From: Watersipora subatra
Lineage: Eukaryota > Bryozoa > Gymnolaemata > Cheilostomatida > Watersiporidae
Length of the DNA stretch: 64,000 nucleotides
NCBI RefSeq assembly: GCF_963576615.1
Contig: NC_088711.1
Span: 36,940,121-37,004,120, forward strand
Reading direction: 5' to 3'
Each line of letters opens with the position of its first letter. Position 1 is the first letter of the stretch. The notes beneath the pieces were generated by a model, which was not told the origin of the DNA, ran no database searches, and was given only the letters and a program-made list of their open reading frames with translations. The position numbers were made by a program, and so were the translations under genes. This document shows positions 22,601-63,521 of this stretch, piece after piece.

Positions 22601-25600
22601 CATCATCCGGTTAGGTGTCATCATCCAGCTAGGTACCATCATCCGGTTAGGTGCCATCATCCGGTTAGGTGCCATCATAGGTTATCAATCGAATTTGTGT
22701 GGAATTTATTACTCGCAATGGAGATTGAAAGACTGAATTCTGCTAGATTTAAGAAATGGTAAAACTAACGACACCGAGTTATTGTTATGGAAAACAGGCA
22801 ATGTCTAACATTTACAGCTACATGTATAAGAGTACTCTGTTATTAACAAAACTCACTTAAAAATTTATGAGTGGCCCCCAACTTGTAGAACTCAGTATTA
22901 GTGGCTCCGCCAGAGATCTAATAGTTAGCGCCGTGTAATGATGATAACGAGTGACGCCTCTGTTAGTGCTTAATTCTTCAAAGCTACTGAATCGGTAGTA
23001 CGAGGTGCTCACCCCATTGTCCTGGTGAATATTTTTACAAAATTGCCAAGAAAATTTTTTCAAAGCTTCTAGTACGAAGGCAGGTCAACTATTAGTCAGT
23101 ATGCTATCGATGTATAGCTAAAATTCCCTTTTTTAATAGACTATTTTATTCAGCTATAAATGCGACATGTTTCGAGCTATTTACAATACCACTTCTTTGA
23201 GAACTCACCTTGTATGAATATTGTAATCTTTACTATAAAGAGAGCGGTGTCCGTCTGTCCAAAGCCACGTCAAGAGATTAAGAAATAAAATTGCTTCTCG
23301 CGGGCATTGATCTCAGGTACTCCGATTCACAGTCAGCACTCTAACCATTATATCACTAAAGTATCCAATTGTATCTGCACTTGAACGAAAGGAATCAATT
23401 ATCCCCATGCGTGGAGCCAACAAAAATAGCTATACGACCCATCCTAAGCGTAGTTTCGCTTTGAAAAATCTTTTATTTTTTATTGCAGTTTATTAATTGT
23501 TAGCAATGACCAGTCATGCTAGACGCATTACAGCTACGAATTTTTACTAATTTTAGATCTATGAACTTTGGGTGATTGTTATTGAACAATAGTACTGCTG
23601 ACAGTTATTCATATTTTATCAGTAATAATAATGCCATAAACTGTAATAATATTGATAAATCATTCGATTCGGACATGCTCACAGTCTTTTCGAAAATGGC
23701 TGAAAACGTGTTCGTTCTCGTTCTGCAACACATTTGGGGTATTTTTCATGGCATCAGCTTATGTAACATTTTAAGATGATTGTGATTTGTGAATTTACAA
23801 AGGTTGTGACAATTTATACTGTCAAATATTTGGTTTTATCGAATATGTAATTTTGTCCCGGTAAAGAAATAAATTGGGTAGCGAAAGAGTTAATTATGCA
23901 CATACTGATCACTCATGACAATCTCTCACACGGTTCATGGGACTGAGCCCAGTATAGAGATTTGCACGTAACAACGTATAATTGAATAGAAGATTCTCTC
24001 ATGTAACTAAAAATTCCAAGTTACTTCTTTGGAAGACTTAAACAACTCTGGATATAATTTTTAACATCAATGCTAAATATCCTAATCAATTTGACGGCTA
24101 ATATAGGGATTTGCATGTAGCACTAAAAAGTACCACAAACTCATAAAATTGCATTTGTAAGAAAAGAAGTTGACAATCTAATCAGTAATATTGAAGAGTT
24201 TGCCTCAAACTGATTTCAAGAGGTTCTTAAAAAGCCATTGCATATATTGCCATGCAACGGTATATGTGTTTACACATGGTGGGACACAAAGTGTTAAAAC
24301 AACAATGTTCTCTGTTCGCTCTAGTGTCTCGCAGCTGGCTCAAGCATACTGAATAGAGAGATAGAAAGTGAGAGCATGAGACCTCTTGCCAAGAGTCTTA
24401 CCAAACAACTTGACCAACTAAGGCGGGCGCTTAGAGATCAAAGCACTCGTGACCCTCTCTTCTACCCTGATAAGATTAAGAGTGCATTCATCAAATTTGA
24501 CGAATCGTTTGCAGAGTTTGAGTTAAGGTATTGTACTATACTTTCCAACTTTGTAGCATCGGGTATAGTTGTAATCAAATAGGTTTTAGATTCTTTTTGC
24601 ATTGCATTCTATTTTGGACACTAGTCAGTGTAATTAAAAGAGTCAGGTTGTAGTAGATAACTGTAGGAGTCAAGTTCTCTCTGTTAAGGCTGGTTCACAC
24701 TATATCGCCATATGACGGCGTTTTCCTTTCGACGTTCATCGTTGATTATGTGAACCGTAAACCGATGGTATTGACGAAATGACTCGGATACATCGGTAAA
24801 GTTTGCAGCTGTCAAACTTTCCCGATATTTCGCCGAGCATTAACGACCACCTGTGCGGTGCGAACCATTTATGTGATATTAATTTGTGGTCACTGATAGC
24901 ATGATTTACTTATTCTCGTTTATGATAGTCGTTGCTGAACTAGTATTTGATTCAAGCATGTGAAACAAAGAGGTTTCTTCGCGAAAAATTAAAAAGAAAA
25001 ATGAAAACAGTACGTCATGGAGTATTTGATGATGCAAATGCGGATGGGTTTGTGATAGTGTGAACATCGTTATCATTGACGATCACCAAAGTATTATGGC
25101 ATCAATGCCGAGATATGGCGATATAGGTTGAACCTGCCCTTAAATAATTGTGCATGTGTTTAAGTATAATTTTACCTTAATCAGCATTATTCTTTGCTCT
25201 TCTATCACATATTAGTGTTTTACTTTGATTTGCTTACCGACAAACCTTATTGTTTGTTACAAATACATTTTTTTATACCAGCTACCCAATAGATATAGGT
25301 TGTATTCAGCTTCCCTACGTTTATATGTGAGGAGTATAAATGTGCCTCCGGATTTCGATCACTCGGGAATGTCAAAGAATTAGGGTAATTATGTATACTC
25401 CATTGTGTACAAGGGTATTCAATACCCAAGTCAGGTAGGCCAAATTCAAGGCATCTGTCAAGACATTTAAGACAAGACTGTCGAGACATTTTTAAAAAGC
25501 AATGCCCTGGTTCCCTAAAAGTATTTATTGCTTGTAGTCCATGAGAAGTGAATGGTTGCCTTTTAGAAAACGTGATTGGAAATTGTTGAAAATGTTTTTA

Positions 25601-28600
25601 TTGGATTCGTCTACCAATCATACTCGTATTCATGGAGATTTATTGTGCCAATCGCATATCATTGAAGGCCACATAAAGAGGTTGATTACCAAAGTCTGTG
25701 AATTTGTATAGACTTAAAAATTTGCTTATAAATCGTTTATTTTGATATAACGATGACTGTTTTTAGTTATTATATTATGCGTACTCCAGAGAGAAGACGC
25801 CAGACCTCGTGGTCAATCAGCAAACTGCCATTTTCTATAAAACTTTTGCTAATTACGGTCGCTATTACATTTAACGCTCCAGCTCTTCTTTTGACAAGAT
25901 CCTAATAAAATGAGTACTATGATATCTGAGAGAGCGTTTTCCTTATCTGTAAAATAGGGCTCTTGGGCCAGCTAACTGTCTTACCATCTTAACATTTTTG
26001 ACCAAATAGTGAAGTGAGCATTGTATCGGTATGATGATTGTTCAATTTATGCTAAAGTTGTTTTAGAAGAGCAAGAAACAGTTTGAATGTTGTATTTTTG
26101 TATGAAGTGAAAGACTGAGAATTTTATTGAGTCAATGTCCTTGTATTTATATCACCTACCTGTATTAATGAGATTCAAGAGAAGGTTGTCATTAAACATA
26201 AGTCAACTAAATACTGTTGGTGTTTTTTCACATTCAAATGAAACAAGGTGAAATTTACTGCAATCAATCAGATGTGTTTTAACAACTACTAGCAAGCCTG
26301 TTTCGACATGATATTGTTATAGAGATATTATACCTTGTTGCTATGTAGTAATGGTCAGTCTCAACATGATATTATAGAGATATTATACCTTGTTGCTATG
26401 TAGTAATGGTCAGTCTCAACATAGAATTGTAGAGATATTATACCTTGTTGCTATATAGTGATGGTCAGTCTCAAAGTGATATTATAGAGATATTATAACT
26501 TGTTGCTATGTAGTAATGATCAGTCTCAACATGATATTATAGAGATATTATACCTTGTTGCTATGTAGTAATGGTCAGTCTCAACATAGAATTGTAGAGA
26601 TATTATAACTTGTTGCTATGTAGTAATGGTCAGTCTCAACATAGAATTGTAGAGATATTATAACTTGTTGCTATGTAGTAATGGTTAGTCTCAACATGAT
26701 ATTATAGAGATATTATACCTTGTTGCTATATAGTAATGGTCAGTCTCAACATGATTATACAGATACTGCGCTTCGGCATGTACACGTTAATGGTATGCGA
26801 CGGTAGTAGCTGCGCTATAGCTGCCAGCTGGTAGCTGCCATTTTGAGAGGCTAAGCGATCCATGAAAGGCATAGTGTTTAAAGACTGTCACTACATCCTT
26901 ATCTAGTGCACATACTATATTTGTTTTCTGTCATGTTCCCAGTAGTGTCTATGCATAAAAAAGATGAACAATTGTGAATGACCTTCAACTTTTGTATGCG
27001 TTTTAGAATAATTGCTTTAGATTTTAAAAGACAGAGGATTTGGAAGATCGCTAGCATAAATTCAGTCTCACAGAAGGGTGTAGTTTTTTAAAACTGCTTT
27101 AATCACACATGAGCAATTGTTAAACATACATGTGACATATTAAACCTTTGCTGACAAATCCCCAGCAATAATCTTGTGCTGGGGATTTGTCCCTGCGCTA
27201 TATCTTCCATCTCTGACTTCATGCCAATTTTTAATTTTAAACTTTCTCTTGCAGCTATGTGACCGCCATGGTACCTGTCAAGACCGTCAAGGAGTATGAC
27301 ATGTCTCAAGAGGTGACTGTTCTTTTTAGTGAAACCGTTAGCAGGTGGGTCACTGAGGTGGTTTTCAATCACGCCTCTGTTATTTTCTATTAAAGGTGGC
27401 ACAACAATAACAATACCTCGGGCGGGCGTGTTTGAATCTATAGTAATGCGAAATAGTAGGTGGAAGATTAGCGGAAGAAGTAATTCTAGGTGTGCATGTT
27501 TAGTCACGTCTTAATCTTGCGTACATACCATTATCTTGATTGTTTAATGCTCTCTTGATATTTCATGTATAGTTTCATCCTAATAGCCTTAATCTCACTT
27601 TTGCCAGAGCACTTGCCCATGGACTCATCACGGGAGACATGCTAGAGTACTATGATCCGGTGCTAATGTTTACCATCCCACGGCTCGCTATTGTCACTGG
27701 TCTCGTCTTCTTCCCCCAAGGTCCGCTCAACCCGGACAGGCGGTCACAAGACCTATCTGAACTTTTTCGTCCATTCCAAAGTCTGTTAAAGCGTATCAGG
27801 TGAGACGTACGAGTTGAGTAGTCTGTAACTAATAGAGACTCTGTTGGATAGCCAGAGACTTTCTTTTTAGTTTGAAAGTTGAATGAGGCTTGGGGGGGGC
27901 GATGAGTTGGAGCGTTATTTATCAAGTGATGTTATAGTAAGAATGTGCTGAAATCTTACTAAGTAAAATTGTTAACATTGTATGGCGAGTATCATTCACC
28001 GACCACCCATGTTTTAAGGGTACATTGTGGGTGTAGTAAATGAATTGACCGGCTTCGTCTTGACTCAATTTGTTTTATTTCTGTAGTACACAAGAGTTCT
28101 TTAGTACACAAAAATCATTCTTTAGTACACGAGACATTACTTTTTCATTTACAAGAAGTCACTCTCTGAGAAACAAGTAGTTACTCTCTATGATATGCTT
28201 AGTTACTCTCTAGTACACAGGAAGTTACTCCCAAGTCTATTTTGCACCAATGGCTCCCATGGTATGTTCTAAGGTCATTAAGATCATCAGAGATGTTGTC
28301 TCAGAGGTTTGTAACTACTCATCTATGACGTGTAGCAATGTATTGTTGAACAATGATCTGGGCGTGTCTCCATATATTTAAAAAGCCATCAGTCTTCTCT
28401 CCAATGACTGCTTAAGCTATAAATATCTGCTTTGTATTTTGTAGCCCAAGTGTGTCCATTCGATTCTCTTATTCATACATTGACGTAACAGACTACACTA
28501 ACACAACCTTCTCTCAGTATGCCTGATTCTATAAACATTGTCAATACTAGGGGTCAGGATGATCAGAGTAGTACACAAACATTTTAGCAGATTAGATGTT

Positions 28601-31600
28601 TTGACAGTTCATCTAAGATTTTTTCAAGTACAGAGCTAGCGCAACAGGCTTAAATATGTTAGAATCTTCTCCTTGGTGCCAAGTCATACAAATGCCTTAA
28701 AATGTTTGATGCAGTTAAACTTTGATCTATGCAGACCTTTTAAGACAAATTTTTGGCATATTTGATACAAAATTTGATATTTGTTTAAGCATACGAACTA
28801 CTTTTCCACATAGAATGTCCAAACATTTCTCAACACATTTCAGTTTTTAAAATCAGTATATACGTATGCAGTTCTTCTTTGCTTCATTTAATTTTATAGT
28901 GCTTACAAAATGTCAAACAATGCTTCATAATTTTCATTTTTATTTGAAAATCACAAATATCCATGACTAGCCGAATTCCCGGCGTTGCATTGGTATTAAA
29001 AACAGCTTATAAACAGTAGCAGATAAAGTACACTAGTTGCCATTGGCTAATTTGAGTAAGCGTATTGCTAAACTTACTAATAAGAATGATGAGAGCAAGC
29101 TTTAGTCACTTGCGCATAGCGCAGAGTCTCTCTGTGTATTTTAACCCAGATAATGACTCATATCGCCTGATGAATCCGTTGCATCTTGTGTAACCTAAGG
29201 GGTTAGCTTGTCGACTTGTGAGAGGGATTTCGAAGATCAAATCTTCTGCGATACAAATTTTTCATTGCCAGATTTTAATCAGCTATAGCTGGACAGACAA
29301 CGAACGGACAGACAACGAACGGCGACAGACGATGACAAATTTTGAGATTTATCTATATAGTTTAGTAGGTTTGGTAAAACAGTTGAAGGCAACGAGTTTT
29401 CTTAAAATTAAAACAAGTATAACTTAGGGTTTATACCTGAATATATAATTTAATCTATACCATAAGGTATATTAGCTTCTTATCTCTATCATTATTCGCA
29501 TCTACTTCTTATTACATTCCCTGTATAACCAAGGCTACACCTCTTTATGCCGGTTTTCAGTGAAGGAGCCTGGGAGTAGTCTAAAGTCTCCCATTTATTA
29601 TTTCTTTGTTAGTTTCTTACGTATAGTTTAGTTTCGTATTTATGGTATAGTCTTCGCTTTCTTTTGATGGTATAAAGTACTTATCATCAAGTTTTTTAGT
29701 TGCCAAACGAATTGAACGAAACATATTGTACAAGAATATTCTCCACAGTATGGTGTTCACTTATAATGAATATACCTAAACCAGATTACCTTTAGGTTTG
29801 ACCGTGTAGAGATTGATTTACCAGTGCAATGGTTGTATGAACTGTTATTGGGAGTGGTATTAGTGTGTTTAGTTATTGCTACCTTCAGAGTTGTTTATTT
29901 CATTTCCAAGCTTTTGGGCCAAGCGGATAAAGGTTTTGCTGTTTAGAAATTTCCTAAATCTACTCATAAATAATATTCATAGGTTACTGTTTGGGAGGTT
30001 TTAAGACGATGTCATTAAAGCATCTTCAAGTCTCTCATAGTCTCTTCCAACATAGTTTCACATTGTTTCAAGTTTGTCTCAAACGGTAGCCTAGTTCAGA
30101 CATACAGTATGTGTAGTTAAATGTGCCAATTAGGATAAATATAAACTTTATCATCACTGGTTAATACCGTTCAAAGCAAATTAGACCATGAGATAAAATA
30201 ATGCTTGCTAGAAGTAGGATCAGTAAGTTTATTTTTAAAGGTTGACTTGCAACAAAATTCACATTACCGTAATTTGATATGAAAAGATTCACCATGTCTT
30301 ACTCTGTTGTGTTGTAGGTGCCAAATATGTGGAAAGGTGATTACAAGCTCTTAAAAGCTCAAAAACGGACAGAAAATCGCAGCCACACGAGACCGCCGTA
30401 GTTTGGATTCTCTTTTCAAAACGGCTCAAATGTGATGTAGTTGTGAGAGATGGTTTCTGTTTACACTTTCTTGCAACCTTATTCGTCGAAATAGTTTCAC
30501 AAGTATACTTCACGAATTCAATAAAACTATGTCTATTGATCTTACGCTTCTGTTTTATCGTCATCGTAATGCTGTCACTTTTAGCACTGATATCTTATAA
30601 CTTACCGTAAAAAATCGTTAAACTTTTTAACCTTACCTCGAATGAGTACATATCATTGTCTGATAATCATGACGAGCCTGTTGGTCACCTGTGATAATCG
30701 AAAAGTGCTGTAAAAATTATTTGCGAAGTATTGGGTCACATGATCACATTACGACTTGACGATTGAATAATGCCGAAACAAAACTGTAAAGTAGCGAGCA
30801 TCTATATTTGATACGGGGTCTTCGGTAAAACCCGAAATGTTTGTCATAAACTAGTACTACGACAAGTTTTATATTGAGCTTTGTATTGGCCTTTCAATTC
30901 ACATGAGAATATACGTGACAAGACGATAACCAAATTTCGTGGTTACGTCATCGAAATAAAGAGATTCCAATCTACGGCAGCTTTTCGTTTTTGAGCTTTT
31001 AAGAGCTTGTAATCACATTTCCACATATTTGGCACTTACAACACAACAGAGTAAGACATGGTGAATCTTTTGATACCAAATAACTGTAATGTGAATTTTG
31101 TTGCAAGTCAACCTTGAAGTAAAACTTAATATTGTGGCCTTTCAACATACTGGTGTCTGAATCCTGTAAGTTCAACCAGATCTTATAGACTGGACTGATT
31201 CTTGATGACACGCTTGGGTCTGTGTGTTTACAGGGAGCTCCTATGGACACTCACACAAAATGAGTTACGCTTCCTTGAGCGACTCCTTTGTAACCTCGAG
31301 CAAGCGGCGGAAGAGGACACAACCCCTGTGTCTACATCAAAAACACAAACGGCCGAACTGGATGCCCTGAAAACCCAGAATGCATCTCCTAGTTTATTCA
31401 ACGACATATCGAATGTACAAAGTTTCAATGGCATGAACTCGGAGAGTTCTCGCGCTGATGACTTTAGGGCAGCTCTGTTCAACATGCTTGACGGGTTGAG
31501 TTACCCTACTGACCAGGCTGCAGGTTCAGCGTCAGAGCAGCCTGCGGACTTACCTCCAGAGTTAGGTAACAACAACCTTTCTCAAACAACTAACACTTCG

Positions 31601-34404
31601 GATAATTCCACATTAATTGTCCTCAACGAAACAATTCAGCCATTGACTGAACTTAGCAATGAACCCAACCATGCAATAGCCAGGATTGATATGCCTTCTA
31701 CTCGAACTAGAGAACAAAACCCTAGCCATACTTCAGTCACATCGCGCAGCAGACGCGCGAAGAGGCAGCAATCAGCAGACCCCACCACTTCACAGCCTTT
31801 ATCCTCTGAGTTTGTCTTCAACCTTCCTGATGGCGCTGCTCAAGATGTTGACGATATGGAGGTTTCAGCTTTTGCTGGCCCGTCTCAAGTGACTCTCCAC
31901 AGGTCTGTCTCAAACATTCTTCCTGGCAGAGTCACCAACCTTACTATCGATGATGAGTCGACAGACTCATCGGAAATATCAATGAGTGACTTCGAAACAA
32001 GCTCAGGAAGTGAAAGTCCAACAATGCGACACAAACAGCTGTCTGCACGACCTCTGGGTGACGAGAAGGCGGATAGTCTGCGTGGCAGATATAGAAATGC
32101 TCAAGAGCTGCTTCATAAGTTATTTGTATGCATATCAGGTAAGCATGGCTGTTGCTTTTCTGGATAAAAGCTAATCCACACGAAATTAATGTGATGTTAT
32201 TAAACAATATTAGCTTGGCAAAAAAGTTTGCAATCTTTAAACAAAAAATAGAATTGTTTTCTACATATTATAAAATCATCTTACTCTGGTGTATTTTTGA
32301 AAGCACAAAAATTAAGTAATCTGATAATTCTATGGCACTCACAAGCATTGATGAAAGCAGCTTAATATATATGTACCAAAAGTAGTATTAAATTGTAAGA
32401 TGTTTGACATTTTTTGCGTGTTTGTAAATGGCCATCGGCCAGTTATTATTAGTTAGTTGTTATCAGTCAATGGTAATTGGTCAATTATTATTATTCGTTC
32501 ACTATTGGTCAATTATTATTAGTCACTTGTTATTGGTTACTAATTCTTAATCACTTACTATTGGTCAATTATTATTAGTCACTTGCTGTGGGTCAATTAC
32601 TATTAGTTACTTGCTATTGGTCAATTATTATTGTAAGCCATTCATTTTTTTTATAATTTTAGTTAAAAAATGGTTAACTGTAATGATAGTCATTTTCCAT
32701 TAATAACATTTTTAAAATTTTATAATGAACCATAAAAATGTTAAATTTAAGTTGGTTTGTGTTTAGATTAGTTGTATGTTTATGTAACTCAGAAATGTGT
32801 AATATCAACTTGAGAATACAACTTTACTTCTAAAAACCTCTTTCATCCATGCTCACGTGTAAAATCTTTACTGGCATTCAAGGAATTGAGTGACTTTCAT
32901 CAGCTGTTTGTAATAACGAAGATTTAGCAAATTTTGTAGTACTTTATATCAACTCTACTACTGAGTGTATTACAAATAAAACTGATTGGCTGTTTGCGCT
33001 TTTTCATTGGTTAGCATAGCTACATTAGGACCTGTTTAGGAAGTGTCTGATTGGCTGATCATTACAGCCTCAATGATCAGCTAATGAATATGTTAGTAAA
33101 TTCATCTTGAGAGAATAACTGACGATTAATAATAGGTGATTATGATGAGTTTGTTCAGCAATGGGTCATCTCGAGCTGTAATATTTTTATTTTATCATCT
33201 TTTTCAGGTGTTGCGGACCAGTTACAGTCTAACTTTGCCTGTGACCTTAGGAATATTCTTAAATGTGTCTTTGAACTGCACACTGGTGATGACACATTTG
33301 TCGACACCCTTGACAAAAAACCTTCGGCTGTTCCTCAGACATCTGACAATGAATCTGAGCCTCTCCAAGGTGAGTTACATGGTGGTGAAAATCAGATGCC
33401 AATCACCGTGATAAGGTGTTGACTAGTTGAGACTCGGAGGTTTACTATGATGTTAGCATGTTTTAAACATTTCATCGATCTATTTGAATTGATTACAAGC
33501 ATTATTATTGGATGTCACTCTGCCTATAGGTGAGCTGGTGATTTTTTTACATTCCTCTCTTGACTGCACATCGCTATAGACATGCTGGATAATGTTATGG
33601 TGTTTGTTGATTTGGTCATTGCGGTTACCTTTTGCTTTGTGATGACACCATTATTAAAATACATGTACAATATATTATTATCGCAATCGTGCACAGTATT
33701 ATAGAAACATTGTACGATATCCTGGAAACGTATGGTATCATAGAAACAATGTACAGTATCGTGGAAAAAATGTAGTATCGTGGAAAAAATGTACAGTATC
33801 ATGGAAAAAATGTACAGTATCATGGAAACATTGTGCAGTATCAAGTCAATTTGACTGTATTTTCCGGTCTGCCACGTTGTTTCTCTTTTTTTGTTGTTGA
33901 CTTTTTTATATCTTGCTAATTCTCTGCATTCCAATCCCGTTCAGCTTGTCTCTAAATGGCATGATTTCTTGTAGCACCGCCGGCGTGGGTTCCTGACTCA
34001 GAGATGGACAAGTGCTGCTCATGCAGATTGCCTTTCACAGTGATACGACGGAGACACCACTGCAGGAATTGTGGTCTCGTAAGTATCACCTACTGCGTTG
34101 TTACCAGTTCTTGCTAGATATTTGGAGTTACCAGTTCTTGCTAGATGTTAGGAGTACATTCTGTGCAAATTCTTTACACCGATATTACTCAGGCTTTATC
34201 TAGGAGCAGCCACTTCCTTATCAGCAATTATTTTAGATATTCTGTGCAAGATGCTCTGCTAACTCAGCCCCTCTGCCTAACTACGGGTATGAGCAAGCTG
34301 TGAGGATATGTAACCTATGCTATGTCTATAGGATTAATCCTTTTTTCATGGATGACAGCACCCAAGAGACCTATAACTCTGCCTCAAGAAGGCAGCAGTC
34401 CTAG
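16667..34404 (+). CDS. ZFYVE28: Lateral signaling target protein 2 (LST2/ZFYVE28) orthologue, 5'-partial, nine exons
   Basis: Exons: 16667-16801, 18627-18770, 24325-24527, 27255-27344, 27608-27799, 31234-32138, 33208-33369, 33975-34078 and 34237-34404 (stop TAG 34402). All have AG/GT borders and agreeing phases, giving 700 residues plus stop; the human protein is about 890. Residues 1-220 match the conserved LST2 N-terminal region ([60 protein letters not shown]). The large sixth exon encodes a Ser/Thr/Asp/Glu-rich linker ending in the conserved [17 protein letters not shown]. The C-terminus, residues 611-685, is a FYVE finger with [17 protein letters not shown] and four CxxC pairs. LST2 proteins bind endosomal PtdIns(3)P and reduce EGF-receptor signalling. 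Lys 74 here (codon 18711-18713) aligns with human Lys87, reported as the regulatory mono-ubiquitination site. Exon 1 (about 13 residues) was not found. Confidence 0.95.
17195..17340 (+). mobile_element. tRNA-derived SINE-like element, copy A
   Basis: Shares with copy B (about 17680) a B-box-like GGTTTGAATTTCC, then CCAAAAGAGCC, GTGACAGGAATGACAT and CCTTAAATT. The upstream part contains an A-box-like tract. It lies in the intron after the first visible LST2 exon. Confidence 0.5.
17680..17830 (+). mobile_element. tRNA-derived SINE-like element, copy B
   Basis: Contains an A-box-like TGGCCTGGTAGTC and a B-box-like GGGTTTAATTCCC at tRNA-like spacing, followed by the same tail as copy A (CCAAAAGATGCC, GTGACAAAAATGACAT). 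Same strand and same LST2 intron as copy A. Boundaries are approximate. Confidence 0.55.
17913..17971. repeat. 41-bp perfect hairpin flanked by 9-bp direct repeats
   Basis: Arms 17922-17940 and 17944-17962 are perfectly complementary over 19 bp with a 3-nt CAG loop. The hairpin is bounded on both sides by AAGCTAAAC (17913-17921 and 17963-17971). It lies in an LST2 intron just after the second SINE-like copy. Confidence 0.85.
18949..20407. mobile_element. TA-flanked DNA transposon, Tc1/mariner-pogo-like, non-autonomous
   Basis: The ends are CAGTGGAACCTCGGTTCTCG (18951) and its inverted copy ending GGTTCCACTG (20405), bounded by TA on each side. Variants of GGTCGAGAACCGA recur as subterminal repeats near both ends. 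CAGTGGAACCTCGGTT termini with a TA duplication are typical of pogo-like and related elements. No transposase frame is present; the interior holds another element (19051-19695). Located in the second LST2 intron seen here. Confidence 0.75.
19051..19695. mobile_element. Nested non-autonomous element inside the TA-flanked transposon
   Basis: The left end (ACAGGATTAAATTACTCGCGG) and the inverted right end (ACAGTATGAAATTATTCGATGG) are similar. Internal TTCGCGAATAA and ATTCGCGGA motifs recur in both orientations. Boundaries and target duplication are uncertain; TA precedes the left end, but a matching TA is not clear on the right. Confidence 0.45.
21280..21715. repeat. Degenerate minisatellite, unit about 24 bp (CATAGACATGTAGTGTGACTTTGC)
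   Basis: Roughly 18 imperfect units in an LST2 intron. The minus strand stays open for 123 codons as a periodic MSMAKSHY-like peptide, which follows from the unit being near a multiple of three. It is not treated as a gene. Confidence 0.8.
22251..22678. repeat. Homogeneous 18-bp minisatellite (ACCATCATCCGGTTAGGT)
   Basis: About 24 copies of an 18-bp unit over 428 bp, many identical, with occasional GTGCC, GTGTC and single-base slips (for example near 22420 and 22469). Because 18 is a multiple of three, both strands are open over long parts of it (an IIRLGT repeat on plus, an MMVPNR repeat on minus). It lies in an LST2 intron. Confidence 0.95.
23222..23470 (+). mobile_element. Repeat fragment with TCTTTACTAT...GTCCGTCTGTCCAAAG start
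   Basis: The start resembles a second copy at 36740-36990 (TTTACTAT, GTG, GTCC, TCTGTC, AAAGC, AGA-ATTA in the same order). A degenerate antisense tRNA-like core follows. The 3' end could not be defined. Confidence 0.4.
24684..25143. mobile_element. TTAA-flanked MITE, piggyBac-like target site
   Basis: TTAA at 24684-24687 and 25140-25143 bounds a 452-bp element with inverted ends: left GGCTGGTTCACACTATATCG, right (inverted) GGGCAGGTTCAACCTATATCG. ATATCGCCATAT follows both ends. There is no coding capacity. TTAA duplications point to piggyBac-type integration, but a Harbinger-type 3-bp TAA duplication is an alternative. It lies in the intron after LST2 exon 24325-24527. Confidence 0.65.
26304..26757. 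repeat. 55-bp minisatellite, about eight copies
   Basis: The unit contains GAGATATTATACCTTGTTGC, then TATGTAGTAATGGTCAGTCT and CAACATGATATTATA. Copies differ at a few positions (CATAGAATTG versus CATGATATTA variants), suggesting spread of sub-variants. It lies in the same LST2 intron as the TTAA MITE. Confidence 0.9.
27153..27191. repeat. 15-bp perfect stem-loop just upstream of an LST2 exon
   Basis: Arms 27153-27167 and 27177-27191 are perfectly complementary (GACAAATCCCCAGCA and its inverse) with a 9-nt loop. It sits about 60 bases before the LST2 exon that starts at 27255, so it could lie near the branch-point region. Confidence 0.75.
28075..28235. repeat. Degenerate tandem repeat with TAGTACACAA and GTTACTCTC words
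   Basis: About five or six imperfect units of roughly 27 bp (TTTAGTACACAAAA, TTTAGTACACGAGA, AGTTACTCTCTAGTACACAGG). Intronic in LST2. Confidence 0.55.
28967..29347 (-). mobile_element. Helitron-like non-autonomous element, copy 3 (inverse orientation)
   Basis: Read on the minus strand it starts TCTCAAAATTTG and ends with AACGCCGGGAATTCGG and CTAG followed by T. Its length is 381 bp, the same as copy 1. It contains the tRNA-like core seen in copy 2 (ATTTCGAAGATCAAATC on plus). It lies in the LST2 intron between exons 27799 and 31234. Confidence 0.6.
30238..31115 (-). mobile_element. Long-TIR non-autonomous DNA element, copy 1
   Basis: The element begins AAGGTTGACTTGCAAC and ends with the inverted copy GTTGCAAGTCAACCTT. 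Similarity continues inward for about 180 bp on each side (GATTCACCATGTCTTACTCT, TTGTGTTGTAGGTGCCAAAT, CTCTTAAAAGCTCAAAAACG). Its interior aligns along its whole length, in opposite orientation, with the element at 62620-63521. No clear target-site duplication was found. A 91-codon open frame (30289-30564, minus) mostly overlaps the terminal repeat and shows no known domain. The element ends 118 bases before the large LST2 exon. Confidence 0.8.
32440..32640. repeat. Degenerate tandem repeat (ATTGGTCAATTATTATTAGTCACTTGCT)
   Basis: About six imperfect units of 28-39 bp in the LST2 intron after exon 32138. Confidence 0.7.
33690..33850. repeat. Degenerate 18-24-bp tandem repeat (TACAGTATCATGGAAAAAATG)
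   Basis: Seven or so units with variants GTACGATATC, GTACAGTATCGTGG and GTGCAGTATC, in the LST2 intron between exons 33369 and 33975. Confidence 0.75.
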
Positions 34405-36276: not shown

Positions 36277-39200
36277 TCAAAGTGCTGACAGCCTGTCTAT
36301 GAACTCAGACGTGAAGGTTTCTATAGCCATATTTGAAACCGAAACTGTGTGCAAGTTTTGAGATTTGTCCAATCCTTCAGCATCAAAGGTTGCTGAAGTA
36401 ATCATAAGCTCTACTGACTGTCTAGGGTACATGCCAGCAATAAAGTTACATGAAATTTTCTTGGTTGTGGTCAGCTTGGTTTTATTGAGTATTCTGTATT
36501 CGATAAATAGTTGTTCCTCAGCGCTGTGTCCTCTCAGAAGGGAAGTCTTGTCAGCTGTCATTCCAGCTGCGCTCCGACCACAAGTGTAGATTGCTTCTAG
36601 ACCATCATGCAACCGGTTCTATGAACAATGGCAGAATGATGTACAACAGATCCATGTAAATAGTCTGTAATAATTCTATCATACATTTCTGCCAACTCAA
36701 TAATGACTTGGTGGCAAACGCAATAAATCTCAGGCATCATCTTTACTATGATAAAAGCTGTGTTGGTCCATCTGTCTAAAGCTATGCTTAGAAATTAGGA
36801 AAAAAGATTGCACCAAACAGGAATTGAACCCAAATGCTTGGTTAAGCAACCATGCACATTACCAACTGCACCACTCCAACACCTTGCTCCAATGCTAAAT
36901 AATTATGAACTTGCCAACTACACATGCCGATTCTCACGGCGCGCAGGATTGCTAGGGTGCTATTATGATATAGTAAACAGAATCCTGAGAAATTTACAAA
37001 AAATTCTTCTTTCTAGATGTTAATGCAAGGAATAGCAATTAGTTGTATTTATACAGTAAACAATTGAATTACATGGAGGTGAAAAGTAATTGTATTTTAA
37101 GAATTTTAAAATTCACTTTTCAGTTATGAAGCAGCATGATAGTAGCAAATAAAAACAAAATTTGTTAAAATGATATCGAAAAATCCTACTCAGTGCTACA
37201 AAAATTCCAAAAATGCTGCTTCACATTGTTTACTGGTTTCGTCTAAATCAACTTCAGCTTTACCTTATAAGCCATGATGGACAAGTCCTTGTATCTCTGG
37301 ATATCCATTTGACGTGTGCATATGTAGACTTTACACCCATCAGTACTCAGCCACTTATTAAGCAGCTGTTTCCACAATAGATATACCTGGCTGTTGCCAT
37401 CTTGCAGCCCCATCCAAGTAGTCAGCCCAGCATTAGAGGAAACACTGGCTAGCTGTAAGGCAAGACGTAAACAGAAAAATGAATATTTAATGACTTGAAA
37501 ATTCATTTAATGCAGCGGTTCTTAACCTGAGTTCCATCGAACCTTAGGGGTTGGATGAGTCAGTCACAGAGGTTTGGCGAATGTCGAAATATGTACATGT
37601 AAGTGTTCACTCAGAAGCAACAGAAGAAGTCACACTGATTTGCAAGGTCAGCTCTTTATGAAAAGATATGTAGTTAATTGTGAGTTCATGCATTTTATTG
37701 ATACATGTACTTTAAATGTAGTGATATTAATGCACAGCTCACTTTGTGCACCAGTGAAACATATACCTATGTATTTAATGTGATAAAAAAAAATTTTTAA
37801 TATGGAAGGGTTTGGTGAAATCACATATGAAAATGGCGAGTTTCAGTACGTCCAACAAGGTTAAGAACAACCGCTTTATTTTCTCTGTGACAAAAAATGT
37901 AAAACTTAATAAAAATGGAAAATCGTAAAAAAGTATTATTCCACAGATTTGATCTACATTAATTAGCGCAAAACAGTGAGAGAGTAATTAACAGCGTGTT
38001 TCCTTATACAGAAACTGATGATGGCTGAGATAAGTGGCAGAATAAGAAGGTAGCTGAAAATAAATTGGTGAGGTTGATATAGCATCAAGTAAGTTATATT
38101 GTGGTATTTTGAGAATATGGTCATTCAGCGAATGGAATCAGTAGGCTAGCTGCTAGTAATGAGCTCGGCAGCAAGCAACCACAGTTGTGCACGTAAATGC
38201 CTAAGAAACTGAATAGGATTAGAATACGTACGATAAATGCGATTTACTAACTGTAATACATGACATCTACTAACTGCGATACATGTAATCTACTAACTGT
38301 AATACATGTCATCTACTAACTGTAATACATGTAATCTACTAACTGTAGCACATGTCATCTAACTATAATACATGCCATCTACTAAATGTAATCCATGACA
38401 TCTACTAACTGTAATACATGTAATCTACTAACTGTAATACATGTAATCTACTAACTGTAGCACATTTCATCTAACTATAATACATGCCATCTACTAAATG
38501 TAATCCATGACATCTACTAACTGTAATACATGTAATCTACTAACTGTAATACATGTAATCTACTAACTGTAATACATGTAATCTACTAACTGTAGCACAT
38601 TTCATCTACTAACCTTGCCAGACTCTTTGTTTGCCGCAAACCTTTGATCAAGCTCAGTCATTTTTACATCAGAAGAAACAAAAGCCAATTTCTCATCAAT
38701 AATTTCTGGTTGAGCGTAATCCAGAAAAAGATTTTTTTTTTCTAAAAACAAACAAGATTCTTACTAACAATACATGCATAGTGATGGTTACTTTCCTGAC
38801 ATTCTAATGCAGTGATATACAATTATATATACAAACATCAAAAACAGTATATTAATATAATATATCTATTCTATGTTATTTTATACCACGTGCATTATTG
38901 TGCTCACACCGACATTTTGATTCTTTCTACATACTGTACTGTATATACGATGACTGTCACATGAAACTTGCCCAACTATCAACTCGTGTAGCTCTGAAAG
39001 ACACAGCTTAAGCACAGTAACTCAAAAGAATATTATATTTGCAATTACTGTACAGTATTTACTGTATATTTTACAGCAGTTGATATGCCATAGGAAACAG
39101 GCGCTAACTTAAACAGTAATATACACTTCAAATTGTTTTCATAAAGCTTCTTGCCTCAGTAAATAACAAACATTACACGAGTTGAAAAAAGTGAAAACTT

Positions 39201-40689
39201 GTTACCTTTCTTTTGTATCTCTCGCCGAGCATCAATGATGAGCTGATCATTGCGATAGTCTAAGGGAAGAGAATAAGTAGAATTGTCGTAGTGCTGCATA
39301 ACCTTCCTAAATATGACCTTGAACCATTCATACACCACATCTCCTTCAATAACCACTAGACCAGTCCGAAGGTATATCTTTATGGCATAATCATCGGCGA
39401 CAGTCTAGATGGAAGGTTAAGCTCATATTTAAGTATCAACACAATTCAACAGATATTACTAACATGATTCAACTGATATTACTAACATGATTCAACTAAT
39501 ATTACTAACATGATTCAACTGATATTACTAACATGATTCAACTGATATTACTAACTTGATTCAACTGATATTACTAACATGATTCAACTGATATTACTAA
39601 CTTGATTCAACTGATATTACTAACATGATTCAACTGATATTACTAACATGATCCAACTTATATTAGTAACATGATTCAACTGATATTACTAACATGATTC
39701 AACTGATATTACTAACATGATTCAACTGATATTACTAACACGCTTCAACTGATATTACTAACATGATCCAACTGGTATTTCTAACATGATTCAACTGATA
39801 CTACTAACACAATTCAACTGATATTACTAATACGATTCAACTGATATTACTAACATGATTCACATATATATACTGAAACATGATTCACGCAAAAACAAAA
39901 CTCACCGTTAGAACCTCAGAACCATGAGAACTGCTATAGTTCTTTGTGTACGTAAATTCAGGTGAAGGAAAATATGCCTGAATGACGCGAACCCAAAAAG
40001 CTCCCAATGTCGTTGAGCCGCCCTTTTTCACAGGTCTGATGTAAATGGATCCGATAGAAAAATCAAGGAAAACCTCTTCTCCAACTTTATTTTCAACAAA
40101 CTGTTTCAGATGATTTTCTAACACAACGGAACCTTGGGCAGCCATGAAGGCAAGCTGTAAATACATAGGCATTGGTTATACCAGAAAAAAGAAAAACTAC
40201 ATTTTGTTATATTCTAATAATAGTCACCTATATTGTTAGTATACTGATTTTGTACCTGTCAAAACCATGCAAGCATCCAAATTATTCAAGACTTTATGTG
40301 AAAATACTTATATTTACACAATAGCCACACAATTCAGTCTTGTCTTTGTCAGCCTCACATTAGAAGGTAGTAGTTACAATGATCACACTTTAAGGGAGAA
40401 CCTTCTAAGACTAAAAACCTATACAGTACATGAAAGCAAACCTTTCTTGAGCGTCCAACCTAGATGGAAACTTCCACCACCCTTCAAAAAGGTTTAATTA
40501 GAAGCATATTGTCTTTGTCAGGCAGCAACTCAGAAAAGGGAGTAAGTGTAGTGGTATGTGACTGAGTGGCCAGTAGTTAATATAAAAGCACCGCGACCTA
40601 TTCTTGTTCACAAACAGAGCCATCTTGTTAGCACGCTGAACTAGTTCATGCTGTAGTAAGTCATTCATTTGCACCTTTACATCATCCAT
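36277..40689 (-). CDS. Six-exon gene of uncertain family, possibly phospholipase-D-like
   Basis: Minus-strand exons: 40154-39906, 39404-39206, 38741-38614, 37452-37264 and 36618-36277 (stop TCA on plus at 36277), with agreeing phases (0, 1, 0, 0) and AG/GT borders. They encode about 368 residues. A likely first exon starts at ATG 40689 (MDDVKVQMNDLLQHELVQRA), but its donor is weak and undecided; ATG 40142 is an alternative start. The protein has no signal peptide or membrane segment that I can see. The last two exons read like a phospholipase-D fold: a segment with LLNKWLSTDGCKVYICTR, then KISCNFIAGMYPRQSVELMI followed by TSATF. An HxKxxxxD motif is not visible, so catalysis is doubtful. This family call is inference from pattern only. 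The gene faces LST2 tail to tail. Introns 2 and 4 contain tandem arrays that fill most or much of them. Confidence 0.7.
36740..36990 (-). mobile_element. tRNA-derived SINE-like repeat, inverse orientation
   Basis: On the minus strand, between about 36890 and 36820, GGTGCAGTTGG (A-box-like) is followed at tRNA-like spacing by GGTTCAATTCC (a match to the B-box consensus). The plus-strand start resembles the repeat at 23222. It lies between the last two exons of the minus-strand gene. A tRNA cloverleaf could not be drawn, so it is not called a tRNA gene. Confidence 0.5.
38245..38614. repeat. 23-bp intronic array that begins at a 5' splice site
   Basis: About 16 units of 23 bp (plus-strand TAATACATGTAATCTACTAACTG) with a higher-order period of roughly 116 bp, seen from two near-identical five-unit blocks. 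In transcript sense each unit carries GTTAGTAGAT. The true donor of exon 38741-38614 reads AAG then GTTAGTAGATG, so the last unit overlaps the functional 5' splice site. Confidence 0.9.
39425..39875. repeat. 23-bp intronic array filling the second intron
   Basis: About 19 units of TGATTCAACTGATATTACTAACA, mostly identical, occupying nearly all of the 499-nt intron between exons 39906 and 39404. In transcript sense each unit carries GTTAGTAATATC, again donor-like. The unit differs from the 38.2-kb array except for the shared TACTAAC core. Confidence 0.92.
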
Positions 40690-45224: not shown

Positions 45225-45897
45225 ATTATTTGCAGTGTCTGAAGTGGAGAGAGATTTTTGGGGGTACTCTGTCATGCTAAGACGGTGGTGTCCAGGACTA
45301 ACAGCCCTGCTCGCGGGGTGAGTCCAAGAGGGGCGATGCGCCCTCTCGGTAGAGGGGGTCCGGGGTACCCCCCCGGAAAATCTTTTTAGCATGAATGCCC
45401 CTAAATGATGATGTTGTTTTCCATAACTTAAAACATAACTTACCACAGCATGCGTGTATTAAAAATGTTTATTTTACATACATAACCTGGATGAAAAAAC
45501 AACAACAACAAGACATGTTTTAATACATGAACAGAGTATCGTATGACCATCAACATTCACATGCTGACAAATAATGCAAAACAAGGTCAAAACAGCAGAA
45601 TGGGATTGATATGGGATTGATATGGTAAACTTACCTGAAATAATAAACAGTCGGAGCAAGAATGGTGAGGAAGGTATACTGTGAGCTACCCCATAGCAAG
45701 CTATCATCTATTGAATGAAAGCAGTACAAGATTGCAACCTACTATCCATGTAATGAAAATGACAACCCTACAGTGAGCTATCATCTATTTAAGGAACCCA
45801 CTAGCTTACAAAGCAAGCTATCACCTATAACAAAGCATAAGCATGTGCATAGTAGTTGTCACTACCTTCTGGCTTTTTCTTTTTCACCGATATAGTG

Positions 45898-48800
45898 TCA
45901 CTGGCTGCATGGTGACCTCTTTTCAGCCAGTTTTTCAGTTGGATTGAAAAGATGAATAGGAGGACCAACAATATTGACAACCATGAGGCCTGAAACTTGT
46001 TTAATGTTTAGTCTATTCTTTTTAGATGTGATGATGGTATTCATAAGACTAAACCCTCGTTCACACTCGGCTGTGCTTACTGGGATACACTTGACCATGT
46101 TTTGCAAATTTTTCAATGATGTATTAGAGGTCTTACCTCCCATAGCCTTGTACAGTCTAAAGCCATTGATGATCTGTTCTTTCACATCTACATCAACTCT
46201 GAACCTATCACAAAGACTTTCAATACTTACCTCTCCAAACCTGGGCACCTCTTCATAATTGGCTGGCCACAAACATGGGTCTAGGAGTGACACTTGAGAG
46301 AGGAGCTCAAAATATTCATCACTATGCTTTTGGCTATTGGCAGCCTTTTCACCTTTCCTTGAGCTCACTGTAAACAAGCGGGAACTAAGAGAGTTTGTCA
46401 GTGACTGAAAAAACCTACTTGCATGTATGAGTACAACCCTCTTGTTTGATAGTACCACTCCCTTGAACTCTCCAGACTCACAGGACACCAGGGCCTCAGA
46501 TTGATACTTACCTGGCACGTCTATGTATCCTCTCATTGCTTTGATTGTTTGGTCAATCAAAGAATTAGCAGTTACCAATGAAACATCCCTGTTCTGCAAA
46601 AGTAAGGAAAGCCTAGAAACCTCTTCCAGTGCATCTAACATAATGCCTAGATTGATGACGAAGTTTTGGCTTGTTAGAGTTGCAACAAATCCTTGAAACT
46701 TAGTATCATTTGGGTGGGACTTGAAGTGGGCAACAAGACTTTCAAAGGATACGTATATTGCTTTTGCTGTCCTCAGAGAAGATGCACACCACCTTGTATC
46801 TAGAAGCCTATCTTCCTAAACTGGCTGTCTAAAGATTCAGCACACTGCTTCACTTCCTCCTGCATCTTGGGAGACTGGCTATATAAAGAATGCAAGCTGG
46901 TGACAAATATCTTGAATGAGCTGATACCACCGCCTACCTCTTCAATTGCATCACCAACAGCAAGCTCTAATTTCTGGTTAGAGCAATGCCATAAAATGAT
47001 GTCTGGGAATCGGTCTAACAGTAGACGTCCAACCCCAGAAGTTGGACCAGTCATAACTGAAGCACCATCTGAGGCAAAGCAGATAAGGTGGCGCTTCAGA
47101 TATGAGTGGTCAAACCCGTGGTTGCTAAGCGTTTGTATCAAGCAATCTACAATAGATTTAGCATCAGCAGTTTTCAAATGTACCAAATCTAAAAATAAAG
47201 TGGTGGAAATGTCATCAACACATGCCCTGAGGTGGATAACAAGTCCCTCCTCATTGCTCACTGTACTGCTTTCATCAATCATTACTGAAATCTTTGATTG
47301 GTTCTGAATAATATGACCAACCAATACCCCTCTCATATCTGAAGAAATACTCGAAATCATACTTGCACATGATTTGTCACTAACGAGGATACCGCTCATA
47401 TTAATCCCATTCTGCTGGTAACATATAATATGATCAGACAGGTCACTGTATGGTCTATTCATTTTTGCAATGTTATAGGCTACATGAATTACTTTTTTTG
47501 TTGAGGTCTGGTGTTTGGCGGATTTATTTGCCAGCATCTGCTGAGTGATGCTGTTGCTCTTCTTAGCTTTAAATACTGCCTCTGATGATTTATGTGCCTC
47601 CGAGAATAAATGTTTGGCTATCTTACCCCTAAGCATAGACAACTTAGTGGTGCACTGTTGTTTAAAATTGGCAGCACCACTGTCTAATGGCTCAAAGCCG
47701 ACCTTAATCTCCATCCACTCTGCTGATGGGTTCATTCCTTTAGTGTGGTTCATCATAGGAATGGGGGCCTTCTGGCACCACAAGCAACCTACATGGTTAT
47801 TTTTTGCGATGATCCATGGATACTTGCTCTTCACATCTCGCAATGTTTTTGAATTCCTTCACCAGACATCAGGCCAATTTAAATATAATACAAAAAAACC
47901 ATATGACCCTACAATATTCAACAAACTAATCTTAGCATTCAGCCACTCACAGTTTGCACCACCACCATTCCTACCAATAAGTGAAGTTTAGATTTTAAAG
48001 AAGGAATTTTCACACACTACATTGAGGGGATAACCCATAGAAAGTACAAATCATAAATCAGAAAAGTGCCCATCACACCAATAATGATATATCAGGAGAG
48101 GAGTATTAGAAGAAAGAAGACATTGACGCCACATACCGTTACAAGCTGAGAAAACAGATTGGTTATGCTATATTACTGCTAGCTACACATTTGTTAGCTC
48201 AGATATACTTACACCAGAGAAGGTAATCTTAAGTTCCTTTGAATTGAATAGAGAAATTAACAAATATTTATATTTGTTTTTGAGCAGTGCATTATTTTTC
48301 TATCTAATCACAGATATCGTGTTTGCAACTCACCATCCACATTGCTGATACTTGAGATCACATCATTTTGTTCTTCACCATCTAACAAAAAGAATTAAAT
48401 GAGAATGGTTTGGGACAAAATGTGACAACATGTATAAGTTCTTACAGTTTTAAATTCCAATAAGCAGCCAAAATTAAATTGGTCGACTCACCAATCACTA
48501 TGGCCTCACTGAGATTTGATTCTGCTGACTTCTCAGCCTCATCATTCATATTAGATACTACAATAAGAATACATTGTATAGCACATTTGAATTAAAAAAA
48601 CTTTGTAATCTTTCCAATAAAGGACTTCGCTATCACGTTGGCAAGCACCACGGGCACCTGGGGAATCCCAATATAAACTACGCATCACCCACCAACACAG
48701 CCCCCTCCCTGTGTTGGTGGGTGATGCGTAGTTTATATTTGGATTCCCCAGGTGCCCATTGCAGGCAACCTACCATCTACATGTGGGATGTTGCTAACAA

Positions 48801-49623
48801 CAGATGTTGTTACAACTGAGTCGGATTCATCACTGGTTAAACTCTCAACCGCTGCATTGTATGTCGATTCTAAAACAAGGTTTTAAAAATAATGGTAATG
48901 TAACAACCTGTGACTAAAGAATTGAAAAGCCTATTGTGCATGTATGTGCATAGCATGGTGCCTACCCACTTTGTGTTGTTCCCTTATGATAACTCAAACC
49001 TGCACAGAAGCAATAGCACTTACTTACCACTTTTTGAATTACTAGATCCAGCATGTGCTTCAGCAGGGCTGCTGGTCCTTTTTACTATAATAAATAATTA
49101 AATAAATAAGCTTGTGACAATGATGAAATAAAAATCATATTTGTATAGTAAAAGGTCTGGACATGCAACATACAATAGGTGACTGGCCAACAATTTTTTC
49201 ATGATCATAATTGACCCTTTGTACTAAGCTAGTGACTCAAGTTGAGCCAAAAAAATTTTTTGATGGTATTACAGCGAAGTGAGCAAATCAGATACAATAC
49301 AAGTTTAAGTAGTTGGTGAGACAGACATCACTGACCCTGTGTTGTGTCCAGTAAAAACTTAAAAGTGGGCCTAGCTGCACAACCTGGGTGCTCTATAACT
49401 ACGGAGTCTCAAGATTGTGATGTGAGTGAGTCAAGAAACCCTATGGACAGTCCACACAGACCCCAGACACAATACAGTCTCATACCCGAGCCATCATGAA
49501 TATTATTATATGATAAGCTCAGTCACTCACTATTTTCTTAAATACAGACTCTAAACTCATGATAGTCACTAATTCTTACTCACCTTTGAAGAAGTTATCT
49601 ATTGGCCCATGCCGTTTCATCAT
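45898..49623 (-). pseudogene. hAT transposase gene (ZNF862/KIAA1586-like), six exons, disabled by one stop and one frameshift
   Basis: Exons (minus): 49623-49584, 49084-49028, 48869-48774, 48557-48492, 48381-48334 and 47908-45898. All introns are phase 1, so the four middle exons are symmetric and could be skipped without frame loss. The N-terminus MMKRHGPIDNFFK resembles the short basic start of KIAA1586/ZNF862-type hAT proteins. The middle exons are Ser/Asp/Glu/Asn-rich. The main exon has a BED/TTF-like finger (CLWC, then HLFSEAH), catalytic-core motifs VMIDESS, SDGASVM and LWHCSNQ, and the C-terminal dimerisation segment with VSTAECERGFSLMN. Two lesions are present: an in-frame TGA at 47859-47861 (after WPDVW) and a single-base loss near 46803-46810, after which LLDTRW continues in another frame. 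The exon sum is 2,318 nt, one short of a whole number of codons, which supports a one-base deletion. It would excise and reinsert the element if intact. Confidence 0.88.
48652..48757. repeat. Long hairpin: 49-bp arms, 8-nt loop, one mismatch
   Basis: Arms 48652-48700 and 48709-48757 are complementary except at one position. The hairpin lies in the transposase intron between exons 48774 and 48557, starting 16 bases after the 5' splice site. Such a structure would make a strong RNA hairpin in the pre-mRNA. Confidence 0.95.
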
Positions 49624-50118
49624 GAATTGAAAGAAACAATGAAGAAACTAGTAAAATAAGCAAGAGTTTATTCAAAACTACCATCAAAAACACAAGAAAA
49701 GAATCCAAGCAATGATTATTCGAGGATTCCAGTTGATTGTGGGGCCCGTTGATTGTGTCGGTTGACAAAAAACTGATCGTTTCTCAGGCTTTTGACAAAA
49801 TAATTTAGTTGTTCCGCTATAATAGCGGAAAACTAACTGAAGAAATCAAAGATCGTCCTCTTTTATTTCTTCGTTTCCGAGATCGGTCTCTCGTCTCGAA
49901 AACGCGCACTGTTTCTTGGTGTAATGAACTCGGGCTAATATAAGTTTGGGAAAAAAAGTTGTGTGAATATTTCACTTCATTCCATTTTATCGCATTTAAT
50001 AAGATATGAGCAACCTTATATGAGGGGTACGCCTCCCAGGGAGTACCCCCACTAATTCTTCTTAGGGGTACGCCGTACCCCTGCGTACCCCCCCCTCATT
50101 TCGAACACTGATTATTTG

Positions 50119-61699: not shown

Positions 61700-62060
61700 T
61701 CTTGTTGAAACAGATTACATAATATACTCTGTCTTGTATACCCACTGATAATAAGTATCCATAGTGTTTTATGTCTACTGTGAATGGTTATGACATACTC
61801 TGTGTTGTACATGCACACCTATTGTGAACAGGTATCACATACTCTGTGTTGTAGATCTACTATCAACTGTTACAAATATCACCTGCTTTACGTTGTACAC
61901 ATACAGTGAACATATATCACTGTATGTGTACAACGTAAAGCAGTATCACATTGTCTTCTTTTTGCATTACCAAATGTTGATTTTGTGTATTAAAACCAAT
62001 TGTGAATAGTGATTACATACTTTGTATTGTTTTACACCTCCTACTGTTTAGTACTAACTA
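61700..62060. repeat. Degenerate tandem repeat with TATCACATACTCTGTGTTGTA words
   Basis: Four to six degenerate units of about 45-60 bp (CATACTCTGTGTTGTACATG, TATCACATACTCTGTGTTGT, GATTACATACTTTGTATTGT). One unit has become a perfect inverted duplication at 61883-61943. Confidence 0.6.
61877..61949. repeat. Perfect 27-bp hairpin flanked by TATCAC direct repeats
   Basis: Arms 61883-61909 and 61917-61943 are perfectly complementary with a 7-nt loop (ACATATA). TATCAC occurs immediately outside each arm (61877-61882 and 61944-61949). Confidence 0.9.
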
Positions 62061-62619
62061 CTGTAACTAGTAAAACATACATAGTAGTTTTGTGTTACAA
62101 AATAAAGAGAGCTCCTTTACTTTCAGAAACCTGTTATACTTATTGTTTAGCACAATACATGGAACCAGGCACACATTTTTGGTTTAAATTTTAAACTTCT
62201 TTTAAAATTAGAAATCATCGCAACAAATTCTGGTCCAAATCCCAAACAACATTCAGGTGGAAAAGGTATAGTGAGTGATCCATTTCTAAGAAGTTAAACC
62301 TTTTCATGTTTCTAGTAGAGGGCTCATTTGATGGTTCTCAGCTGTCGCTGGCACTCCTAAATTTGTGGTATGCGCACATTGAATCTTCAGTTTAATTGTA
62401 CAGTCACTCGAAGTTATGTAACATGGTCTGTTTGTTGGCAGAATGTATGGTTTGTATGGTTTTCTGGTACTGGTCTCTGTCACATGAATCCAGTGATTTT
62501 GCATTTGGAGTCACTGAAGTAAATCTTTCAAATGAATGCCTACTCGCACTGGTACATGAATGTGAAAAAGACCCAACTGAGCGTTCTACAGCGCTTAACA
62601 TATCATTTGTGTAAACTTA

Positions 62620-63521
62620 AAGGTTGACTTGCAACACAATTCACATTACAGTTATTTGGTATTAAATGATTCACCATGTCTTACTCTGTTGTGTTGTAGG
62701 TGCAAAATATGTGGAAATGTTATTAAAAGCTCAAAAACGAACATTTAATCGCAGCCATCTCGAAACCGCCGTAGATTGGAATCAGTTTGTTTCTCTAACG
62801 TAGTCAATCCATTTGGTTATTGTTTTGACACTTGATGTTCTCACTTATATTGAAAGGCCAATAAAAGGCTCAATATAAAACTTCTCGTAGCACCAGTTTA
62901 TGTCAAACACTTCAGGTTTTACCGAAGAGCCTGTATCAAATATAGATGCTCCCTACTTTACAGTTTTGTTCTGGGTTGGTCTAATCTCTAGTCTTAATCT
63001 GATCATGTGACCCCATACTTGCAGCCAAACAGCGCGAACAATTTCTGCAGCATTTGCCGACTTATCCCAGGTGACCAACGGGCTCCTCGTGTTTATCAGA
63101 GGATGATATGCAATTCTTCGAGCTGAGGTTTAAAAATTAAACGAATTTTTACAGTAAGTTTTGAGATATCAGTGCTGAAAGTAACAGCATTACAATGAGG
63201 ATGAAATAGGCGCATAATGAAAATAGACATGGTTTTATTGCATGCATGAAGTATATTTGTAAAACTATTCCGACAAATGAGGTTGCATGAAAGTGTAAAC
63301 AGAAGCCAACACGTTCAACTACATCCCATTTGAGCAGTTTTAGAAAGAGATTCTAATCTACGGCAGTTTCGTGATGGCAGCGATTAACTGTTCGTTTATT
63401 AGCTTTTAGGAGCTTGTAATCACATTTCCACATATTTCGCACCTACAACACAGCAGAGTAAGACATAGTGAATCTTTTGATACCAAATACTTGTAATGTG
63501 AATTTTGTTACAAGTCAACCT
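62620..63521 (+). mobile_element. Long-TIR non-autonomous DNA element, copy 2
   Basis: Starts AAGGTTGACTTGCAAC and ends with inverted CAAGTCAACCT. It aligns over its whole length with the reverse complement of 30238-31115, including TTACCGAAGA near the middle and GTAAACAGAA near the end. It diverges by many substitutions and several small indels, so both copies are old. No target duplication or transposase was recognised. Confidence 0.8.

Follow-up and report, generated by a model that had tools for sequence, protein, structure and literature searches.

Multi-exon transposase genes have been described in several members of the hAT superfamily of DNA transposons. Ac of maize is 4565 bp long and has a five-exon transposase gene (PMC3260210), Tol2 of medaka has four exons and 8-bp target duplications (PMC4818426), and BuT2, a hAT element of the Tip group, has a predicted five-exon transposase, 12-bp terminal inverted repeats (TIRs), an 8-bp target-site duplication (TSD) and end primers that begin with CAGTG (PMC3942097). 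Tol2 produces mRNAs from exons 1–4 and from exons 2–4, and the short product, from exons 2–4, inhibits excision by the long one (PMC4818426). In the case of Hermes, the subterminal repeats are bound by BED finger domains, and the target duplications follow the pattern nTnnnnAn (PMC10368747). Here, we describe a 4878-bp element in a 64,000-nucleotide stretch of Watersipora subatra DNA (NC_088711.1, positions 36,940,121 to 37,004,120; this whole stretch is the window, in which all coordinates are given). This element is very probably a hAT-superfamily DNA transposon inserted at ATTATTTG, and a disabled member of a once-autonomous family unless the break in its coding frame, described below, is a sequence error. 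It is structurally complete and probably coding-defective in this copy.

Ends, target duplication and subterminal repeats

The element spans positions 45233–50110, with its transposase gene on the minus strand, and lies between two identical copies of the 8-bp ATTATTTG at 45225–45232 and 50111–50118. Its tips are CAGTGT at 45233 and ACACTG at 50110, and they form part of an imperfect 14-bp pair of TIRs that agree at 11 of 14 positions (left, CAGTGTCTGAAGTG, 45233–45246, plus strand; right, CAGTGTTCGAAATG, 50097–50110, minus strand). Among the 484 CAGTG...CACTG pairs spaced 300–8000 bp apart within the window, this pair alone is flanked by a perfect 8-bp duplication, against an expectation of 0.007–0.014. 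Published hAT elements are 2.5–5 kb long, with TIRs of 10–25 bp and TSDs of 8 bp (PMC3942097), and we count the length, TIRs and TSD of the present element, all of which fall within this range, in favor of the hAT assignment. The locus thus combines the superfamily's characteristic 8-bp TSD and TIRs of 10–25 bp with a dimerization domain and with subterminal repeats at both ends. The hAT identity, CAGTGT ends and exact 8-bp duplication proposed in the first-pass annotation are therefore upheld by the tips themselves, by ATTATTTG on both sides, and by a Pfam dimerization match in the encoded protein.

The subterminal repeats take the form GTACCCC/GGGGTAC, which occurs eight times in the outer 150 bp of the two ends, nowhere else in the element, and twice elsewhere in the window. 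Three copies lie in the left cluster (45261–45371, with starts at 45261, 45362 and 45365) and five in the right cluster (50024–50091, with starts at 50024, 50043, 50065, 50075 and 50085), while the maximum reached in 2000 shuffles of both ends was two. These clusters show the subterminal-repeat layout of hAT elements, and their binding by the transposase is putative. They differ in sequence from the subterminal repeats of Hermes, which hold AAGT (PMC10368747).

Taken together with the gene described below, this organization suggests a conventional cut-and-paste cycle. Transcription of the minus-strand gene would start at the right end of the element, and the small linker exons, rich in Ser and acidic residues, would be spliced to a large exon that supplies both the zinc finger and the catalytic core. 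The resulting enzyme would recognize the tips as well as the clustered GTACCCC repeats, excise the element and, like Hermes, integrate it with an 8-bp stagger.

The transposase gene

Five small exons precede the large exon on the minus strand. Exon 1, MMKRHGPIDNFFK (49584–49623), starts with ATG, and its GTGAGT donor leaves the frame in phase 1; it is followed by exons 2 (57 nt, 49028–49084), 3 (96 nt, 48774–48869), 4 (66 nt, 48492–48557) and 5 (48 nt, 48334–48381), each of which is phase 1-1 and a multiple of three in length. The donors of exons 2–5 are GTAAGT, GTAGGT, GTGAGT and GTGAGT, that is, all of the G|GTRRGT type. When the 1727 nt separating exon 1 from the large exon were scanned for exons, the four phase-1 candidates found were exons 2–5, which form a chain of four; the same scan gave a single phase-0 candidate (48693–48776) and no phase-2 candidate. 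In 2000 dinucleotide shuffles, the phase-1 chain length was zero in 1923, one in 76 and two in one. We note that the splice-site thresholds were set with the exons already known, a circumstance that favors the observed chain; nevertheless, the gap to the shuffled sequences is still wide. The four small phase 1-1 exons are thus well supported as sequence signals for predicted splicing. The small exons encode an 89-residue linker with 25 Ser/Thr and 17 Asp/Glu, in agreement with the earlier description of short, acidic and Ser-rich middle exons.

Two further observations concern this region. Intron 3 contains a 106-bp palindrome (48652–48757) with arms of 49 nt that are 98% complementary and separated by 8 nt; folded as RNA together with its flanks (130 nt), it gives −103.6 kcal/mol, and no obvious target duplication was found in its flanks. 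A reading of the exon 1 peptide as a PIP-box (PCNA-binding motif) was dropped, as it lacks the Gln that we take to be usual in such motifs.

The large exon consists of two overlapping open reading frames (ORFs) on the minus strand, a first part of 352 residues (46800–47858) and a second part of 305 residues that runs to the stop codon (45898–46815). Along these parts, the motifs follow in the order C-x2-C...H-x5-H (zinc-finger-like, 47592–47786), IDESS, SDGAS, WHCSNQ, DTRW and CIPVSTAECERGFS, and AECERGFS likewise comes after DTRW; the finger-like pattern, IDESS and SDGAS lie in the first part, DTRW and CIPVSTAECERGFS in the second. We take the Asp of IDESS (47274–47276), the Asp of SDGAS (47067–47069) and the Glu of AECERGFS (46060–46062) to be the candidate catalytic residues, a putative DDE set of the sort that hAT transposases have in their RNase H-like core. 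The second part contains the hAT dimerization domain, matched by the Pfam family Dimer_Tnp_hAT (PF05699) at 45973–46095 with E = 4.7e-5 and 23.5 bits against a cutoff of 21.4. In a phmmer search of the PDB, the same part gave four weak matches to transposases, two of them named Hermes transposase and two simply "transposase" (E 0.009–0.011). We found no relatives of the 305-residue part in collections of genome and viral contigs, nor of the 352-residue part in genome contigs, viral contigs and phages; as these collections cover bacteria, archaea and viruses only, both results carry little weight. Downstream of the stop codon, a possible polyadenylation signal, AATAAA, lies at 45468–45473 on the minus strand, and ATTAAA also starts at 45524. 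The region downstream of the stop also holds degenerate repeats of a ~39-bp unit (45688–45828), in three copies, two of them 62% and 77% like the reference copy, and a 20-bp core of this unit recurs once more at 45809.

The two ORFs of the large exon are in different frames and overlap at 46800–46815, such that this copy lacks the uninterrupted coding sequence that marks an intact, autonomous hAT element, and the expectation of one open frame in the main exon does not hold. With the donor patterns tried, no single intron of 30–600 nt joins the two frames, and no slippery site of the XXXYYYZ type is present at 46780–46900. A full-length transposase is thus probably beyond this copy, barring an error in the sequence at the break.

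The junction between exon 5 and the large exon is a separate difficulty. When the AG acceptors between 48236 and 47788 were joined to exon 5, 19 of 21 met a stop within 100 codons, including the best-scoring ones at 48145 (97th percentile), 47970 (94th), 48236 (91st) and 48016 (90th), where percentiles are taken among the AG sites of the element and the score comes from a rough, hand-made matrix. The two acceptors that retain both phase 1 and an open frame are poor ones: the first, after which the exon would begin at 47836, is at the 14th percentile, and the other, at 47788, is at the 30th percentile, and its use would truncate the domain at its start. An acceptor with a higher score (83rd percentile, first base 47856) leads from exon 5 to a stop after eight codons, and a good one (90th percentile, first base 47908) is in frame with the main ORF and is then followed by an in-frame TGA. 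The same matrix gives the acceptors of exons 2–4 scores of only −0.7 to 0.3, and that of exon 5 a score of 2.8; since exons 2–4 themselves score low, a weak true acceptor at junction 5 is conceivable. The six-exon, phase-1-only gene of the first-pass annotation is therefore sustained for introns 1–4 by the scan and the shuffles, whereas neither its phase-1 fifth intron nor its open large exon is confirmed; that annotation passed over both the break and the difficulty at junction 5.

Competing explanations and related elements

Several results weigh against an intact hAT transposase gene of the proposed structure, or against the hAT assignment itself, and have to be taken into account. No good acceptor keeps the frame at the fifth junction. 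The PF05699 match is short, at 41 residues, and the PDB search with the 305-residue part also returned two sequences of an unrelated EF-hand protein (E 0.04–0.06). For the 352-residue part, there were only two Pfam matches, to unrelated families and far below their cutoffs (E 0.1 and 0.35), and only chance-level PDB matches (E 0.65–0.7). Set against the Hermes pattern nTnnnnAn (PMC10368747), the single site ATTATTTG has the T at position 2, and at position 7 it has T rather than A. Finally, self-comparison of the window, considering matches of at least 60 bp, showed no second copy of the element, in line with a search for the tip pattern, which apart from the element's own ends gave one match with two mismatches (three found in total vs 3.7 expected by chance).

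The frame break and the poor junction 5 would both disappear if they were sequencing or assembly errors in an element that is in fact intact and active, an explanation compatible with the one we prefer. The exact duplication would hint at no great age, and the three candidate catalytic motifs are still present on either side of the break; however, two separate errors are needed, because the junction-5 problem is independent of the frame break, and we consider this outcome somewhat unlikely. The same junction would be explained if the small upstream exons were foreign to the transposase and the protein started inside or close to the large exon, for which one may cite the 19 of 21 acceptors that lead to stops, the poor quality of the two open ones, and the richness of the 89-residue linker in Ser/Thr and acidic residues. 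Four consecutive phase-1 exons with strong donors, unmatched in 2000 shuffles, and an exon 1 that opens with ATG and closes at a GTGAGT donor make this improbable. Alternatively, the common phase could have arisen by tandem duplication of the internal exons. For exons 3 and 5, p is 0.03 for protein and 0.07 for DNA (300 shuffles each), but the other five of the six pairs all have p values of at least 0.05 (0.07–0.98 for protein, 0.10–0.72 for DNA), and a single p = 0.03 among 12 tests is unremarkable. The pairwise shuffle tests thus do not support duplication, which we regard as very unlikely.

The first-pass annotation had also linked the element to ZNF862 and KIAA1586. This putative likeness lies in what we take to be a shared arrangement of a C-x2-C...H-x5-H finger followed by a hAT core. 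The locus could itself be a domesticated host gene of this kind and no transposon at all. The multi-exon structure and the presumed likeness of the finger and start would fit such a gene, whereas the matching tips, exact duplication, subterminal repeats and broken coding frame do not, and we consider a host gene here extremely unlikely. ZNF862 and KIAA1586 are host genes, unlike the present transposon, to which they may be related by their motifs. Neither was among the PDB matches for the 352- and 305-residue parts, and searches of the open-licence literature that paired these genes with transposons gave no paper on the topic, as judged by titles and the openings of abstracts, other print lying beyond their coverage.

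Returning to a disabled hAT transposon as the preferred explanation, its closest parallels lie among known hAT elements. BuT2 shares with it short TIRs, an 8-bp TSD and a gene predicted to have several exons, and its end primers begin with CAGTG; it differs in having exons of 133–500 nt and a length of 2775 bp (PMC3942097). Ac has a similar multi-exon organization, although it is a plant element and is likened here by its description only (PMC3260210). Hermes has the dimerization region in common with the present element, through a weak phmmer match (E ~0.01). Tol2 likewise combines a multi-exon gene with 8-bp duplications; its short form is without most of the BED finger, (PMC4818426), whereas the present element has its finger in the large exon, downstream of the small exons. 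Ac, Tol2 and BuT2 weaken, without disproving, the earlier statement that introns are few or absent in most hAT transposases, as three multi-exon cases are no survey.

The four small in-frame cassette exons are thus a modest variation on known multi-exon hAT elements. For the alternative N-termini through exon skipping suggested in the first-pass annotation, Tol2 offers an earlier example, with its inhibitory short product from exons 2–4 (PMC4818426); such isoforms are thus plausible here, although of a known kind. An open-licence literature search found no paper on a six-exon hAT-superfamily transposase, and published cases may exist elsewhere. The locus adds one well-delimited multi-exon hAT element with a clear subterminal-repeat layout.

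A broader implication concerns host genes. ZNF862 is listed as hAT-derived, and seven coding introns are treated as de novo gains (PMC3257199). An intron-bearing source element would be a reason to re-examine this count, although no observation on this locus links the present introns to those of ZNF862. Should the cassette exons prove to be shared, in frame, by other copies of the element, the family could be used to examine whether transposase-derived host genes inherited introns from the element. At its most speculative, there may be a hAT lineage with an N-terminus of interchangeable phase 1-1 cassette exons, skippable in frame to give graded isoforms, such that, if ZNF862-like genes descend from such elements, some of their "de novo" introns were inherited from the transposon; we give this only a slim chance of being correct.

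Genomic setting and other features of the window

The insertion lies ~11 kb past the last recognized exon of an LST2-like host gene, presumably ZFYVE28, whose exons lie on the plus strand at 18600–34100. The best-supported of the matches noted is near 18.6 kb (E 8.1e-13); a further, weak one lies near 32 kb (E 0.008), and a FYVE-type motif, RRHHCRNCG, is found at 34049 on the plus strand. This gene by itself points to an animal genome. Outside the element, a Pfam scan of 10 of the 22 window ORFs of at least 110 residues gave one weak match, to DUF4240 (E 0.04), below the cutoff, and no RNA families or tRNAs were detected in the window at the thresholds used.

The window also contains several repeats. 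A 61-bp palindrome at 61883–61943 has TATCAC on both sides, as a very small foldback insertion with a duplication of 6 bp would; however, the left TATCAC stands at the end of a tandem array of units that start with TATCAC, and the match may belong to this array. Two inverted copies of another element, at 30224–31128 and 62615–63521, are 81% identical over ~900 bp and have long terminal inverted repeats (~144 nt at 93% in the first and ~173 nt at 84% in the second), resembling a family of the foldback or miniature inverted-repeat transposable element type. Minisatellite arrays are found at 22251–22678 (18-bp unit), 26317–26755 (55 bp), 38245–38613 (23 bp) and 39444–39887 (23 bp).

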